In this document: positions 59,179 to 64,000 of the stretch, one piece after another
Numbering within the stretch: position 1 is the first letter of the stretch
How the letters are laid out: the number at the start of each line of letters is the position of its first letter
Source of the DNA: an uncultured Propionivibrio sp.
GTDB taxonomy: Bacteria > Pseudomonadota > Gammaproteobacteria > Burkholderiales > Rhodocyclaceae
Direction: 5' to 3'
Assembly: GCF_963666255.1 (NCBI RefSeq)
Contig: NZ_OY762655.1
Coordinates: forward strand, 682,001 to 746,000
Length of the DNA stretch: 64,000 nucleotides
Position numbers and translations under genes: made by a program
Notes under the pieces: generated by a model
What the model was told of the DNA's origin: nothing
Database searches by the model: none
The model's input: only the letters and a program-made list of their open reading frames with translations

Positions 59179-60069
59179 TCAGGGCCGACCGCCCTGCCGC
59201 AGGCGCTCCATGTTGGGCACCGGCAGCGTCCGCCGCAACACGGTCTCGCCGAGCCAGTCGGCGGCGCGGCGCGCGCGCAGCGCGATTTCCTCGGGCGGCA
59301 TCTGCAGGTAATCGCTGTTGTAGACGTCGAAACTGTAATCACCGAAATAGCCGTTGTCCTCGAGCTTGACGACGAACTTCGAGAGGATGTCGCTGTGCGC
59401 ACCTTCGCCCGGAAACACCCGGAAGCGCGCCGCGGTCATGATTTCCTCCTCCGACGAACGCACTTCCTGGAGCATGAAGTCGGAAAGCTGAACGAGGAAA
59501 ACGCGCGGCGTGAAGATCGCATCGAGATCCTCCACCGGCACGCCGGCGGCGATGATGTCGAAAACGTCGATGGCGAGGCCGAGATTCGGACAATCAGCCA
59601 GGCCGACGATATCGGCGGCGGCGATGAAATCCTTGGCGGTACGGCTCCACGACAGCCCCTTGTAGGCGATGCGGATGCCTTTCGGCAAGGCGAGGAAGGC
59701 GAGCTTGCGCAGATCCTTGGCGATCTTTTCGGGGTCCGTGTCGGCATGCGTCGACGACGAAGCCTCCGCCACCAGCATGCGGCTCTGGATGCGGTCGCCC
59801 AGGGTCAGCATCGACTTGGCGACATCGACCTTGTAATCGTGCATGCGACCGTCGAGGCCCTCGAAATCGCGCAGCGCTTCCAGGCCGGTGACGCGCAGTC
59901 CGCTGCGCCGGATGGCCTGCACCGCAGTTTCGGTGTCCTGCGGGTGGCCGACGATATCGGCCGCCGAAATCATGATCTGCGTGAACCCCGCCTGTTTGGC
60001 CGCTGCCAGACGCGTCTCGAGCGAGCCGGCGAGCGAGGCGCTATCGATGCCGAAATCGTTGAAATTCAT
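59179..60069 (-). CDS. Sugar phosphate isomerase/epimerase-fold protein, QuiC1 N-domain-like
   Basis: A 296-aa xylose-isomerase-like TIM barrel. It resembles the N-terminal dehydratase domain of bacterial 3-dehydroshikimate dehydratase QuiC1: LRDFEGLDGR, IAYKGLSWSRTAKDF, LAIDVFDI, FLVQLSDF and RFRVFPGEGAHSDI. In QuiC1 the metal ligands are Glu, Asp, Gln, Glu; by eye alignment here they are Lys137, Asp168, Gln194 and Asp248, so the site is altered. It starts 5 nt after the VOC gene stop, so both are co-transcribed. It may be a dehydratase, epimerase or lyase on an unknown substrate. Confidence 0.75.
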   Translation of the reverse strand: MNFNDFGIDSASLAGSLETRLAAAKQAGFTQIMISAADIVGHPQDTETAVQAIRRSGLRVTGLEALRDFEGLDGRMHDYKVDVAKSMLTLGDRIQSRMLVAEASSSTHADTDPEKIAKDLRKLAFLALPKGIRIAYKGLSWSRTAKDFIAAADIVGLADCPNLGLAIDVFDIIAAGVPVEDLDAIFTPRVFLVQLSDFMLQEVRSSEEEIMTAARFRVFPGEGAHSDILSKFVVKLEDNGYFGDYSFDVYNSDYLQMPPEEIALRARRAADWLGETVLRRTLPVPNMERLRQGGRP

Positions 60070-60074
60070 GACGT

Positions 60075-60965
60075 TCAGGCTTGCATATCGGGGGTGGTGT
60101 GAACCAGCTCGAACATCACGCCGCCAAGCGCTGAGGTTGTCAGCGCACCGCGCTCGGTGGTGCGGACGCGCTCGGTCGACAGGAATTCGATGCCGCGCTT
60201 TTCGAGTTCTGCGGCGGTGCCGAGCACGTCGGGCGTACCGAGGCCAATGCGCTGCAGATTCTCCTCCATTGCCGCGAACTGTGCCGCGCCCTCGGGCTCG
60301 ATCAGCTGCAGGAAGAACTTGCGGCAGGGACTCTGCAAGAGCACGCCGCGCGGCATGATGCCATAACGCACGTTGTCGGGAATGCGGGTGAAGCCGAAGA
60401 TCTGGCGATAGAACTCGACCCAGTCCTCGGCCCGCTCGACGCCGACATATTGCACGAGGCCGAAGAAACCGAGCTTGTTGATCGCCGGCGGATGGCGCTC
60501 GACGCCCGGAATGGCGCGAAAATCGATGTCGAAGATCGAGAATTCGTCATAGCGGTCGACAAAATAGATCAGGCTTTCGCCGACGCCGTGAATGCCGGGA
60601 ATATTGAGTTCCAGCGCCTGCGCCCGCGGCGGCACGTCCCAGCAGCCGAGATCCTTCGCACGGCGGAACGCGGCCTCAGCGTCGCGCACGCGGAAGGCCA
60701 CGGCGCTGATGATCGGATGCTCGACCGGCGACACCGTGCGCGGCAGGTCGGCCGGCTGCGAATTGATCACGATGTTCATCGACCCCTGGCGGTACAGTTC
60801 GACCTCGCGCGAGCGGTGCCGCGCCACCGGACGGAAGCCCATGCGTTCGAGCACGTCGCCGAGGGCCTGCGGACGCGATGTCGTGTATTCGATGAATTCG
60901 ATCCCGTCCATGCCGATCGGATTGATCAGCTCTGGGATCGACTCGTGGTCAGCGTGATGTTCCAT
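60075..60965 (-). CDS. HPPD-like VOC-superfamily protein, QuiC1 C-domain-like
   Basis: A 296-aa protein of two vicinal-oxygen-chelate halves, related to 4-hydroxyphenylpyruvate dioxygenase and to the C-terminal half of QuiC1. Seen: GLVQYVGVERAEDWVEFYRQ, IFGFTRIPDNVRYGI, and VLGTAAELEKRGIEFL. Two iron ligands appear substituted: the first His (IDH in HPPD) is Lys164, and the second (QHIAL) is Arg239; the third, Glu286, is kept. It is therefore unlikely to be a standard Fe dioxygenase. AGGAGG precedes the ATG. It sits between the IclR gene and the isomerase-fold gene, same strand. Confidence 0.75.
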   Translation of the reverse strand: MEHHADHESIPELINPIGMDGIEFIEYTTSRPQALGDVLERMGFRPVARHRSREVELYRQGSMNIVINSQPADLPRTVSPVEHPIISAVAFRVRDAEAAFRRAKDLGCWDVPPRAQALELNIPGIHGVGESLIYFVDRYDEFSIFDIDFRAIPGVERHPPAINKLGFFGLVQYVGVERAEDWVEFYRQIFGFTRIPDNVRYGIMPRGVLLQSPCRKFFLQLIEPEGAAQFAAMEENLQRIGLGTPDVLGTAAELEKRGIEFLSTERVRTTERGALTTSALGGVMFELVHTTPDMQA

Positions 60966-61081
60966 TCCACCTCCTGCGTGTCTCGTGCTGCGATTTATCG
61001 CGTCGGACCGGCCGGCGCCTGCGTTATTGGCGACAGTATATCCTCAGCCGCCCGGATCGCAGCGACTTGATCGCCGCTTTC

Positions 61082-61852
61082 TCAAAAGGCCGACATCAGC
61101 GCGTATTCGGCTTCGCGCAGCAGGGGCAAGGCCCGCGCCACGGCGCGCTCGGAGGTTTCGCCCTCCATCGGCAGGCTGACGCTGACGGCACCGACGATCT
61201 CGCCACTGCGCTTGCGGATCGGCACGGCGATGCCGCGCACCGCCAGCGTCAGCTGCTGTTCGAGCAAGGCATAACCGCGATTGCGCGCATTGTTGATGTT
61301 CTCGCGCACCGCCGCCTCGGTCGTCGCCGTATGCGGCGTGTAGGCGACGAACTTGCGCCCCGTCAGCCAATGGTCGATCTCGGCCGGCGACTGGCAGGAC
61401 AACATCGCCACACCGGCGGCGACGAGATTGGCCGACAGCCGCGCACCGAGCACGAAGCCGACGTTCTGGATCTGGCTGAAGCCGTCGCGCGCGACAAAGA
61501 CGACGTCATCCTCGTCGAGCACGGCGAAAAACGCCGCGCCGCCGAGCGCGACGCTGATGCGCTGAAGGTGCGGCTGGGCGGCGCGCGGCACCTTGGCCGA
61601 ATCGAAATAGGACCAGCCGAGGCGCAGCACTTTCGGCGTCAGCCAGAAATGCTGACCGTCACTGTCGACATAGCCGAGGTGCTGCAGCGTCAGGAGATAT
61701 CGCCGCGCCGCCGAACGCGTGATGCCGGTGCGCCGTGCCGCGGTCGAGGCCGTCAGCCGCGGATGCGCGTCGTTGAAGGCTTCAATGACCCGCAAGCCCT
61801 TCTCCAATCCGGCGATCCAGTCACGCTTGTCGAGATCAATTTTCTCAATCAT
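61082..61852 (-). CDS. IclR-family transcriptional regulator
   Basis: A 256-aa regulator: N-terminal winged helix-turn-helix (about 10-75; GLRVIEAFNDAHPRLTASTA and RRTGITRSAARRYLLTLQHLGY) and C-terminal IclR effector domain (RGYALLEQQLTLAVRGIAVP). It is typical of PcaU/PobR-like regulators of aromatic or hydroaromatic catabolism. It is divergent from the acylating dehydrogenase gene, with a repeat-containing operator region between; it probably controls both sides. AGGAAA lies 6 nt before the ATG. The effector is unknown. Confidence 0.9.
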   Translation of the reverse strand: MIEKIDLDKRDWIAGLEKGLRVIEAFNDAHPRLTASTAARRTGITRSAARRYLLTLQHLGYVDSDGQHFWLTPKVLRLGWSYFDSAKVPRAAQPHLQRISVALGGAAFFAVLDEDDVVFVARDGFSQIQNVGFVLGARLSANLVAAGVAMLSCQSPAEIDHWLTGRKFVAYTPHTATTEAAVRENINNARNRGYALLEQQLTLAVRGIAVPIRKRSGEIVGAVSVSLPMEGETSERAVARALPLLREAEYALMSAF

Positions 61853-61869
61853 CGCTATTTCCTAACGTA

Positions 61870-61911
61870 ATTTGCGCGATTAACGAACTCATTTGCGCGA
61901 TTGTCGCGCAA
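61870..61911. promoter_or_regulatory. Putative IclR operator
   Basis: A 12-bp direct repeat ATTTGCGCGATT at 61870-61881 and 61891-61902 (21 bp apart, two helical turns). The second copy overlaps a perfect palindrome TTGCGCGA-TTG-TCGCGCAA at 61893-61911. It lies between the divergent IclR and dehydrogenase genes. No clear -35/-10 pair was recognised. Confidence 0.7.
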
Positions 61912-61985
61912 TAGTCAACTTTCGGCAATGCGCCGCGCGCAGCTTGCTCCTACCATGGGCAAAAAAGCGCGGCGATCCGGAACCG

Positions 61986-62002
61986 GAACGAACGAACGAA
62001 CG
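61986..62002 (+). repeat. GAAC tetranucleotide repeat
   Basis: Four tandem GAAC units plus one base, 26 nt upstream of the dehydrogenase start and about 10 nt before its Shine-Dalgarno. Confidence 0.6.
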
Positions 62003-62027
62003 CAATCATCAAAACACAGGAGCGGAC

Positions 62028-63521
62028 ATGAGCAGACAGAATGACATGGCGGAGCGCTACGCGGAGTTGAAGTGCTCGCCGGAGCAGATTCAGGAGCTGG
62101 ACGAGGCGTTTGCGCGGGCGGACAAGGCGCAGCGCGAGTTCGAGAAGTGGGACCAGGCGTCGATTGACCGGACGATCCAGTCGATTGCGCAGATCGTCGC
62201 CAACTCCAAGACCTTCCATGAACTGGTGATGCTCGGCATTTCCGAGAGCGATTTTGGTGATCCGGTCAGCCGCGAGGCCAAGCGTTTCAAGATTCGCGGC
62301 ATCCTGCGCGATTGTCTGCGCGAGAAGTCCGTCGGCATCATCGAGGAGATTCCCGAGAAGCGCATCGTCAAGTATGCCAAGCCGGTCGGCGTCATCGGCT
62401 GCGTCATTCCCGCCACCAATCCCGACCTCACCCCGGCCGGCAATGCCATTTACGCCATCAAGGCGCGTAATGCCATCATCTTCTGTCCGCATCCGCGCAC
62501 GCTCAAGACCAGCCGCAAGACGATCGAACTGATGCGCGAAGGCCTGCGTCGCGTCGGTGCCCCGGAGGATCTCGTCCAGATCCTCGGCTACAAGGGCAAG
62601 ATCAACAAGGGCTTCTCCGAAGCGATGATGACCAAGGTCGATCTGATCATCGCCACCGGTGGCCAGGGCGTCGTCCGGCGCGCCTACATGTCCGGCACCC
62701 CGGCCTATGCCGTCGGCGCCGGCAATGCCACGATGATCTGGGACGAGACGGCCAGGAAGGAGCTCAACAAGGCCGCTTTCAACACCATGCGCTCGAAGAC
62801 CTCCGATTTCGGCTCCGGCTGCTCCGCTGACGGCAACATCGTCATTCACGAGAGCATCTGGGCCGACGCGCTCAAGGAACTCGTTGCCGTCGGCGGTTAC
62901 ATGATGAGCCCGTCCGAGCAGGAGGCCATGCGCAAGGTCATGTGGGACGACGAATGCCATCGTCACTCCGACACCGTCGCCCTCTCTGCCGTCGATATGG
63001 CCAAGCACGCCGGTTTCGCCATCCCCGACGACCGCAAGTTCCTCATCGCCTCACACGGCACCGGCATCTTCAACGAGTCGCTCGAAGGCGTCTGGTGCCG
63101 CGAGAAGCTCTCCACCGTCCTCGCCGTCCATCAGTACCGCGGCGAATTCCAGAACGCCATCGACACCATCATGGCGATCCATGAGGTCGGCGGCATCGGT
63201 CACTCGGTCGGCATCTTCTCCTTCGATGACGATCACATCCACCGTCTCGCTTCCGTCGCCCGCGTCGGCCGCATCATGGTCCGCCAGCCCCAGTCCAAGG
63301 CCAACTCCGGCAGCATGAACAACGGCATGCCGATGACCTCCTCGATCGGCTGCGGCACCTGGGCCGGCAACGCCACCAGCGAGAACATCCACCTCCATCA
63401 CTACATGAACGTCACCTGGGTCTCCTGGGAGTTCGACAAGCCCGATCCCATGGTCGATGCCGAACTCTTCGGCGAGTTCTACGACCCCGAACTCGAAAAA
63501 ATCCAGTACTCGCCTTATTGA
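62028..63521 (+). CDS. CoA-acylating aldehyde dehydrogenase
   Basis: A 497-aa aldehyde dehydrogenase of the acylating (AdhE/EutE/SauS-like) class, converting an aldehyde and CoA with NAD(P)+ to an acyl-CoA or the reverse. Motifs: IPATNPDLTPAGNAIYAIKA, ARNAIIFCPHPRTLKTS, MSGTPAYAVGAGNATM, and the catalytic Cys265 in SKTSDFGSGCSADGN. No alcohol dehydrogenase domain is attached. Sulfoacetaldehyde dehydrogenase SauS is one possible relative. AGGAG precedes the ATG. It leads a plus-strand operon with the ThDP enzyme and diverges from IclR. The substrate is not evident. Confidence 0.88.
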   Translation: MSRQNDMAERYAELKCSPEQIQELDEAFARADKAQREFEKWDQASIDRTIQSIAQIVANSKTFHELVMLGISESDFGDPVSREAKRFKIRGILRDCLREKSVGIIEEIPEKRIVKYAKPVGVIGCVIPATNPDLTPAGNAIYAIKARNAIIFCPHPRTLKTSRKTIELMREGLRRVGAPEDLVQILGYKGKINKGFSEAMMTKVDLIIATGGQGVVRRAYMSGTPAYAVGAGNATMIWDETARKELNKAAFNTMRSKTSDFGSGCSADGNIVIHESIWADALKELVAVGGYMMSPSEQEAMRKVMWDDECHRHSDTVALSAVDMAKHAGFAIPDDRKFLIASHGTGIFNESLEGVWCREKLSTVLAVHQYRGEFQNAIDTIMAIHEVGGIGHSVGIFSFDDDHIHRLASVARVGRIMVRQPQSKANSGSMNNGMPMTSSIGCGTWAGNATSENIHLHHYMNVTWVSWEFDKPDPMVDAELFGEFYDPELEKIQYSPY

Positions 63522-63556
63522 TCAACACGCTAAGCAAACACACGCAACACCCAGGC

Positions 63557-63578
63557 CGCCGCACCGCGAGGTGCGGCG
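63557..63578 (+). promoter_or_regulatory. Intercistronic GNRA-loop hairpin
   Basis: Perfect 9-bp stem (CGCCGCACC with GGTGCGGCG) closed by a GCGA tetraloop, no T-run, in the 106-nt gap between the dehydrogenase and ThDP genes. Likely an mRNA stability or processing element. Confidence 0.5.
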
Positions 63579-63627
63579 AAGCCAAAACCATAATCATAAA
63601 AAAACAAGCAAACAAGGAGCGTCAGAC

Positions 63628-64000
63628 ATGAAGGATCTGATTTCGAACCAGCTGGTGAAGTATCTGGAAGCGCGTGGGGTGGAGCACATTTTCGGTTTGT
63701 GCGGGCACACCAATATTGCCGTGCTGGCCGCCCTGTCGAAGAGCGACAAGATCAAGTTCGTCAATACCCGGCATGAGCAGATCGCCGCGCACGCCGCCGA
63801 CGGTTATGCCCGCGCCACCGGCAAGGCCGCGGTGCTCCTCTCGCACCTCTCGCCCGGTCTGACCAACGCCGCCACCGGCGTCGCCAACGCTTCGCTCGAT
63901 TCGATCCCGATGGTCGTCATCGCCGGCGATGTCCCCACCCATTACTACGGCAAGCATCCCCACCAGGAAGTCAATCTGCATGCCGACGCGTCCCAGTGCG
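63628..64000 (+). CDS. ThDP-dependent enzyme, acetolactate synthase-like superfamily (partial)
   Basis: The first 124 residues of a thiamine diphosphate enzyme, cut by the window edge. The Pyr-domain pattern is clear: catalytic Glu50 in FVNTRHEQIAAHAADGYARA, LSHLSPGLTNAATGVANASL, and IPMVVIAGD. At residues 22-28 FGLCGHT carries a Gly-His pair resembling IolD (FGHGN) and cyclohexane-1,2-dione hydrolase (GHTS), rather than the PGG of acetolactate synthase. AAGGAG lies 8 nt before the ATG. It follows the acylating dehydrogenase on the same strand. Whether it is a ring-cleaving hydrolase, a carboligase or a decarboxylase cannot be settled from the fragment. Confidence 0.8.
   Translation, partial: MKDLISNQLVKYLEARGVEHIFGLCGHTNIAVLAALSKSDKIKFVNTRHEQIAAHAADGYARATGKAAVLLSHLSPGLTNAATGVANASLDSIPMVVIAGDVPTHYYGKHPHQEVNLHADASQC

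Follow-up and report, generated by a model that had tools for sequence, protein, structure and literature searches.

A conserved gene cluster of Propionivibrio and Bacillota as a candidate route for non-aromatic breakdown of hydroaromatic acids via homocitryl-CoA

Near the end of a 64,000-nucleotide stretch of DNA from an uncultured Propionivibrio species (the window; positions 682001-746000 of contig NZ_OY762655.1, with numbers prefixed C1 below being positions of this contig), two gene groups diverge, one headed by an IclR-type regulator and the other by a coenzyme A (CoA)-acylating aldehyde dehydrogenase (ALDH) followed by a thiamine diphosphate (ThDP) enzyme. A sequence-only reading of the window had named five genes here, all of which are confirmed by open reading frame (ORF) and profile searches, and had tentatively assigned them to a non-aromatising degradation of a cyclic polyol or hydroaromatic acid, with dehydration first, then C-C cleavage and then CoA activation. 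These genes, together with the one that directly follows beyond the window, are:

59179..60069, minus strand: ISO1, a xylose-isomerase-like TIM barrel of the AP_endonuc_2 family (PF01261), homologous to the N-terminal half of QuiC1
60075..60965, minus strand: VOC, an HPPD-like protein (PF14696, 148.9 bits), homologous to the C-terminal half of QuiC1
61082..61852, minus strand: IclR regulator, PcaR/PobR-like (TIGR02431, 244.5 bits, under the cut-off of 284.75)
62028..63521, plus strand: CoA-acylating ALDH of the SauS/EutE/AdhE-N group, proposed homocitrate-semialdehyde dehydrogenase (acylating)
63628..64000, plus strand: first part of the ThDP enzyme, proposed ring hydrolase (full gene C1:745628-747400)
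C1:747500-748348, plus strand, as the ThDP gene: ISO2, a second isomerase-fold protein

Downstream of ISO2 and in the same orientation come genes for an AroE-like dehydrogenase, a type II 3-dehydroquinate (DHQ) dehydratase (AroQ) and a tripartite ATP-independent periplasmic (TRAP) transporter (DctQ, DctM and DctP), after which a LysR gene lies on the opposite strand and a second gene set starts. This second set comprises an ALDH, a 3-hydroxy-3-methylglutaryl-CoA (HMG-CoA) lyase-like protein (HMGL), a citryl-CoA-lyase-like protein, a ThDP enzyme, ISO2, and diverged versions of the AroE-like dehydrogenase and the TRAP transporter. The sequence-only reading had named the DNA past position 64000 as the place to look for a transporter and a dehydrogenase, and both are present there; the sulfonate or acetoin genes that it considered damaging are absent from the downstream genes identified. 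Together, the DHQ dehydratase, AroE-like dehydrogenase, TRAP transporter and acyl-CoA lyases fit its proposal in the case of a hydroaromatic acid, and the non-aromatising order of steps is supported, whereas the role given to a split QuiC1 pair is not, as discussed below. The lyase step, which points to homocitryl-CoA, lay beyond its view.

This arrangement recurs in other genomes. Genome contigs were scanned with the ThDP protein, and the best 80 of 169 relatives, 68-89% identical, were used; they come mostly from Rhodocyclales, Burkholderiales, Bacillaceae and Negativicutes. Within 10 kb of the ThDP gene, an ISO2-type gene is found in 59 of the 80 loci, an acylating ALDH in 46 and an NAD-type ALDH (NAD-ALDH) in 20, and a lyase in 55 (HMGL-like in 34, citryl-CoA-lyase-like in 21). 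A DHQ dehydratase is present in 41 loci (AroD in 31, AroQ in 13) and a CoA-transferase in 15. Of the 80 loci, 52 have flanks of 7 kb or more to either side of the ThDP gene; among these, ISO2 is found in 41, any ALDH in 49, any lyase in 40 and any DHQ dehydratase in 31, with ISO2, ALDH and lyase together in 34. The genes mostly run in the same direction as the ThDP gene (ISO2, 58/59; acylating ALDH, 46/46; citryl-CoA-lyase-like, 21/21; HMGL, 32/34; AroD, 30/31; AroQ, 11/13). A looser earlier count gave ISO2 in 64 of 80 loci, acylating ALDH in 47, any lyase in 57, DHQ dehydratase in 40 and CoA-transferase in 17, and the stricter one reduced the co-occurrence of CoA-transferase with acylating ALDH from 2 to 1 of 80. 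The most complete window-like layout seen (L020) has IclR, VOC and ISO1 diverging from AroD, ALDH, citryl-CoA-lyase-like, ThDP, ISO2, DctQMP, AroE-like and AroQ. Because the neighbourhood is conserved in other genomes, the cluster is not a chance assembly, and conserved gene content lends good support to the general reading of a non-aromatic route with dehydration, C-C cleavage and CoA activation.

Several further genes accompany the cluster elsewhere. A protein with a shikimate-kinase domain is encoded near it in 22 of the loci (L035, L079 and other Bacillaceae loci among them), often beside a membrane protein of about 450 amino acids with no Pfam match, which occurs in 18; a LacI-type regulator is found in 26.

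The two kinds of lyase belong to different families, PF00682 for the HMGL-like and PF00285 for the citryl-CoA-lyase-like proteins, and each passes a family model (NF004283, 319.1 bits against a cut-off of 246, and PRK06224.1-1, 393.6 bits against 261). Both families catalyse the same type of step, in which a 3-hydroxyacyl-CoA yields acetyl-CoA and a keto compound. None of the 80 loci contains both, and the ThDP tree requires at least six changes between them. An acylating ALDH and an NAD-ALDH share a single locus of the 80 (L090), with at least four changes on the same tree; these change counts come from a quick tree with locus labels from the looser neighbourhood count. A semialdehyde can be turned into a CoA ester either by one acylating enzyme or by oxidation followed by CoA transfer, and the Bacillaceae-type CoA-transferase, defined by a 45% identity filter, lies beside an NAD-ALDH in 15 out of 15 cases, L090 included, while the two CoA-transferase loci below the filter (L029 and L078) have no adjoining NAD-ALDH. 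Collectively, these swaps suggest one underlying chemistry, from aldehyde to acyl-CoA to retro-Claisen cleavage, and thus a cluster whose enzymes convert an aldehyde to an acyl-CoA, which they go on to split. They further suggest that the alternating lyases share a substrate, different from both the HMG-CoA of leucine breakdown and the citryl-CoA formed from citrate. The cluster thereby offers a clear case of repeated replacement of an enzyme by an unrelated one.

The window ALDH is, judging from its top-scoring models and its active-site Cys, of the CoA-acylating type; the motif G-[SA]-G-C-[SA] around this Cys is present in 47/47 acylating ALDHs. Its top NCBIfam match is SauS (NF047625), ahead of AdhE- and EutE-type models, which recalls a sulfonate route combining a SauS-type sulfoacetaldehyde dehydrogenase with a ThDP enzyme resembling sulfoacetaldehyde acetyltransferase. 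However, the SauS score of 382.7 bits falls short of the cut-off of 600, the ThDP protein reaches 309 bits against 620 for the sulfoacetaldehyde acetyltransferase model, and the genes that recur nearby encode DHQ dehydratase, an AroE-like dehydrogenase and acyl-CoA lyases. We rejected this route as exceedingly improbable.

An ordinary acetolactate synthase, which the sequence-only reading had counted as an outcome that would undo its proposal, was likewise rejected for the ThDP protein, which scores 427.4 bits with TIGR00118 (cut-off 538.35). With the IolD model TIGR04377 it scores 233.8-251.4 bits, also below the cut-off (715). A His follows the N-terminal FGxxG turn in all 80 loci (78 HTN, 2 HTV); four annotated IolD proteins share this Gly-His motif in the form HGN, whereas GCL, AlsS, Xsc and two annotated acetolactate synthases lack it. 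In a quick tree with very long branches, in which 24 of 91 inner branches are open, the position of the protein among the reference families is unsure. Cyclohexane-1,2-dione hydrolase of Azoarcus sp. 22Lin, also a ThDP enzyme, opens a cyclic 1,2-dione by hydrolysis and so forms a semialdehyde acid (PMC13327070); its H28A/N484A double variant ligates instead (PMC8541089, PMC12247030). The cluster protein matches this enzyme at 157.7 bits, ranking under many acetolactate synthases; residue 9 of the query aligns with residue 10 of the chain, and from the alignment ends His27 probably corresponds to His28 of the hydrolase. More distant ThDP relatives occur in haloarchaea, for instance on a Haladaptatus plasmid (L100; about 36% identical), where the one examined has a GHGS motif, lies near a gene annotated iolM and may be another ring hydrolase, for cyclitols. 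Actinobacterial relatives, such as that on a plasmid of Streptomyces sp. NBC_01450 (L099), are 51-52% identical, and the one examined has the motif GHTN.

The dehydration had been ascribed to ISO1 and VOC as a split QuiC1-like pair. As a statement of homology this stands: both proteins match, in order, the fused-protein QuiC model NF042435, with 94.3 bits for ISO1 and 83.8 bits for VOC (under the cut-off of 1200), and VOC covers positions 2-266 of the 353 in the HPPD model, that is, only its first three quarters. As a statement of function it is not supported. The active site of QuiC1/QsuB, according to PMC7442255, consists of Arg64, Leu97, Glu134, Leu136, Asp165, His168, Gln191, Ser206, Arg210 and Glu239. 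In an alignment to 5hmq (chain numbering +2), window ISO1 has Lys, Asp, Ala and Asp at Glu134, His168, Ser206 and Glu239. Among 17 proteins of the ISO1 type, 6 keep Glu134, 3 keep His168 and 5 keep Glu239, and the window string K-D-D-Q-R-D recurs in 11. VOC and ISO1 occur together in 15/15 loci that have either.

An ordinary aromatising pathway, in which the split pair would convert dehydroshikimate to protocatechuate and the ALDH/ThDP operon would be unrelated, draws on the match to the two halves of the QuiC model and on the ISO1-type proteins of other loci that keep more of the active site. Nevertheless, window ISO1 lacks Glu134, His168 and Glu239, a profile search of this genome returned no PF00775 dioxygenase, and the DHQ-linked genes sit inside the ThDP operon; we rejected this pathway as very improbable. 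The genome has one LigB-family match, which we take from its motif to be YgiD-like.

ISO2 retains what ISO1 has lost. With residues mapped through alignments, equivalents of Glu134, Asp165, His168, Arg210 and Glu239 are present in 60/60 ORFs, and position 191 is His in 54 and Gln in 6; another 13 ORFs, which are short, fused or distant, do not enter this count. ISO2 is encoded separately, has a single domain and scores only 12.4 bits against 5hmq; its structure model (mean predicted local distance difference test score 93.9) matches the folds of Lmo2234 and QuiC1 (template modelling score about 0.72) after that of IolI, with IolE and AsbF lower. On these residues, the dehydratase is probably ISO2, outside the window, and not the split pair inside it. 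Five loci have ISO1 and no ISO2; one of them (L024) is degenerate, and the Glu134 and Glu239 kept in the other four (L070, L077, L081 and L082) would fit ISO1 taking over the role of ISO2 there.

With about even confidence, we propose that the cluster serves uptake and non-aromatic breakdown of quinate/shikimate-type acids via homocitryl-CoA; the steps, with their exact intermediates, are inferred from active-site and other residues and from the genes present. After uptake through the TRAP transporter, DHQ would be formed by an AroE-like dehydrogenase in this genome and by a zinc dehydrogenase in Bacillota. In DHQ, C3 is a ketone, C4 and C5 carry hydroxyls, and C1 bears both the carboxylate and a tertiary hydroxyl. 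For shikimate, DHQ dehydratase would act in reverse, and its place in a catabolic operon would be explained because dehydroshikimate formed from shikimate needs hydration to DHQ to regain the C1 hydroxyl. ISO2 would then remove the C5 hydroxyl beside the C3 ketone, in analogy to the action of QuiC1 on dehydroshikimate. Because C1 carries a tertiary alcohol, aromatisation would also require loss of the C1 hydroxyl, and the product would be a 1,2-dione, 1-hydroxy-3,4-dioxocyclohexane-1-carboxylate, not protocatechuate. The ThDP enzyme would hydrolyse the C3-C4 bond in the manner of IolD and cyclohexane-1,2-dione hydrolase. In IolD, the carbonyl beside the new CH2 becomes the carboxylate and the other the aldehyde; applied to the 3,4-dione, this regiochemistry would thus make C3 the aldehyde, at a distance of two bonds from the tertiary alcohol, and the product would be homocitrate semialdehyde. 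The acylating ALDH, or in many Bacillaceae NAD-ALDH plus CoA-transferase, would produce homocitryl-CoA, a 3-hydroxy-3-carboxyacyl-CoA and so of a form that both lyase families could handle. Either lyase would release acetyl-CoA (C2 and C3) and 2-oxoglutarate (C1 and C4-C7). The balanced sum, quinate + CoA + 2 NAD+ -> acetyl-CoA + 2-oxoglutarate + 2 NADH + 2 H+, would call for no further enzyme.

Within the family, close relatives of ThDP (E <= 1e-200) and ISO2 (E <= 1e-60) occur in the same 2 of 150 genomes, this one and that of Propionivibrio limicola, of the same genus; the two other genomes of the genus among the 150 have neither at those limits. In P. limicola GolChi1 (L018), the ThDP gene lies at 65560-67317 of its contig, the HMGL is 88% identical, and the citryl-CoA-lyase-like match is 62% identical with one internal stop flagged. 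A separate region of P. limicola (L132, C11:232000-251900) has, in a row, a TRAP binding protein, MaoC-like, CoA-transferase-like, weak AroE-like, AroQ and citryl-CoA-lyase-like genes, adjoining opposite-strand genes that by eye alone resemble the 2-oxoglutarate dehydrogenase complex.

Quinate and shikimate are abundant plant acids, and their textbook breakdown via protocatechuate needs oxygen for ring opening. To our knowledge, how fermenters break down hydroaromatic compounds anaerobically has been an open question since Brune and Schink (1992). We consider it plausible, though at somewhat less than even confidence, that the cluster encodes a so far undescribed route in which quinate and shikimate are degraded without aromatisation via homocitryl-CoA with either of two unrelated lyases, and that it fills the gap in hydroaromatic fermentation by Propionivibrio and exists in Bacillota as well. 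In the literature searched, mostly without subscription journals, neither the name homocitryl-CoA nor, by title and abstract among the top-ranked papers, a description of the route was found. If true, the proposal would give a complete, carbon-conserving answer to hydroaromatic fermentation without oxygen, and it proposes a role for widespread genes annotated 'thiamine pyrophosphate-binding protein', 'sugar phosphate isomerase/epimerase' and 'citryl-CoA lyase'.

Several observations weigh against the homocitryl-CoA route, some of them in favour of variants. The best match of ISO2, both by fold and by sequence in the PDB, is IolI, an isomerase. Within the same pathway class, ISO2 could thus be an IolI-like ketone isomerase, or the split could be of the acyloin type, leading to another 3-hydroxy-3-carboxyacyl-CoA such as citryl-CoA after loss of C4, to which the passing of a 'citryl-CoA lyase' model by one lyase would conform. 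Against this stand the QuiC1 dehydratase residues, including His168, kept throughout the ISO2 proteins. Moreover, such variants would need more enzymes or a loss of carbon, and no extra enzyme was seen to be shared by the five Rhodocyclales-type loci compared; we regard them as unlikely.

A second set of doubts concerns the substrate. The AroE-like protein scores 134 bits with TIGR00507 (cut-off 200.2), below the curated cut-offs. Ten of 25 ORFs plus the Azoarcus one were aligned to AroE and YdiB, and Thr61, Lys65, Asn86 and Asp102 are kept in 11/11, Lys65 and Asp102 being the catalytic residues of these enzymes. In the same 11/11, Phe/Val, Ala, Met/Leu and Met replace Ser14, Ser16, Tyr215 and Gln244; Ser14 and Ser16 presumably form the shikimate carboxylate site of AroE, and by these replacements the protein may depart from the usual mode of binding shikimate or quinate. 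The substrate might then be a different compound, a C7 cyclitol or hydroaromatic acid that carries a tertiary alcohol and is linked to DHQ by the DHQ dehydratase. We hold this to be less likely still, given a DHQ dehydratase within 10 kb in about half of the loci, mostly in the direction of the ThDP gene, and P. limicola, which is reportedly presented in a paper's title as a hydroaromatic specialist. The cluster AroQ, moreover, may serve biosynthesis, because the genome has no other AroQ; one AroD is encoded elsewhere.

Gene content also leaves exceptions to the route via homocitryl-CoA. ISO2 is missing in 11 and a lyase in 12 of the 52 long-flank loci, and the best curated model of the ThDP protein is still acetolactate synthase. 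The plasmid-borne operon of Azoarcus KH32C (VOC, ISO1-type, CoA-transferase, citryl-CoA-lyase-like, ThDP, AroE-like, AroD) has a CoA-transferase and neither ISO2 nor any ALDH, as does the related locus L078; this more distant CoA-transferase of Azoarcus-type operons is unexplained unless an ALDH is encoded elsewhere. Finally, this genome itself departs from the exclusion between lyases: the first, window-side copy has no lyase of its own, and the second, downstream copy has both kinds.

The proposed route borrows from several known systems. In the myo-inositol route, a cyclic ketone is dehydrated to a 1,2-dione, a ThDP enzyme hydrolyses the ring, and CoA-acylating semialdehyde oxidation comes later. 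The cluster resembles this system (IolE, IolD, IolA) in chemical order and in the Gly-His motif of IolD, but differs in its retro-Claisen lyase ending and DHQ-linked genes. A myo-inositol cluster as such was rejected, as the IolD score is under its cut-off and the one IolE match of the genome reaches 19.8 bits against a cut-off of 290. With the QuiC1/QsuB protocatechuate pathway it would share hydroaromatic substrates and a QuiC1-type active site, here in ISO2, whereas the proposed route is non-aromatic, ISO2 stands alone with low similarity, and in the window the QuiC1-like pair is both split and degenerate. A precedent for the proposed ThDP-dependent ring opening, in which a cyclic 1,2-dione yields a semialdehyde acid, is cyclohexane-1,2-dione hydrolase, despite its low score to the cluster enzyme. 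Unlike HMG-CoA lyase and citryl-CoA lyase, whose family cut-offs they pass, the cluster lyases alternate in the same operon context.

The ALDH, ThDP and ISO2 genes of this genome are present as tandem copies, one at 62028-64000 of the window and its continuation, the other at C1:754168-760300. The ALDH copies, about 10 kb apart, are 99.7% identical over 1552 bp; the ThDP copies are about 12 kb apart and encode identical proteins, and the block of ThDP, ISO2 and most of the dehydrogenase is 94.4% identical over 3572 bp. Near-identical ALDH, ThDP and ISO2 beside diverged AroE-like and TRAP genes suggests recent duplication or gene conversion. A third, older version on contig 3 (L010, C3:196000-212000) has a ThDP protein 64% identical, an ISO protein, AroE-like and TRAP genes, with no ALDH or lyase seen in the region. 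L010 also carries an Asp/Glu racemase-family gene and a transketolase split into a pair; a Negativicutes locus (L057) has relatives of both next to its HMGL, ThDP, ISO and ALDH genes.

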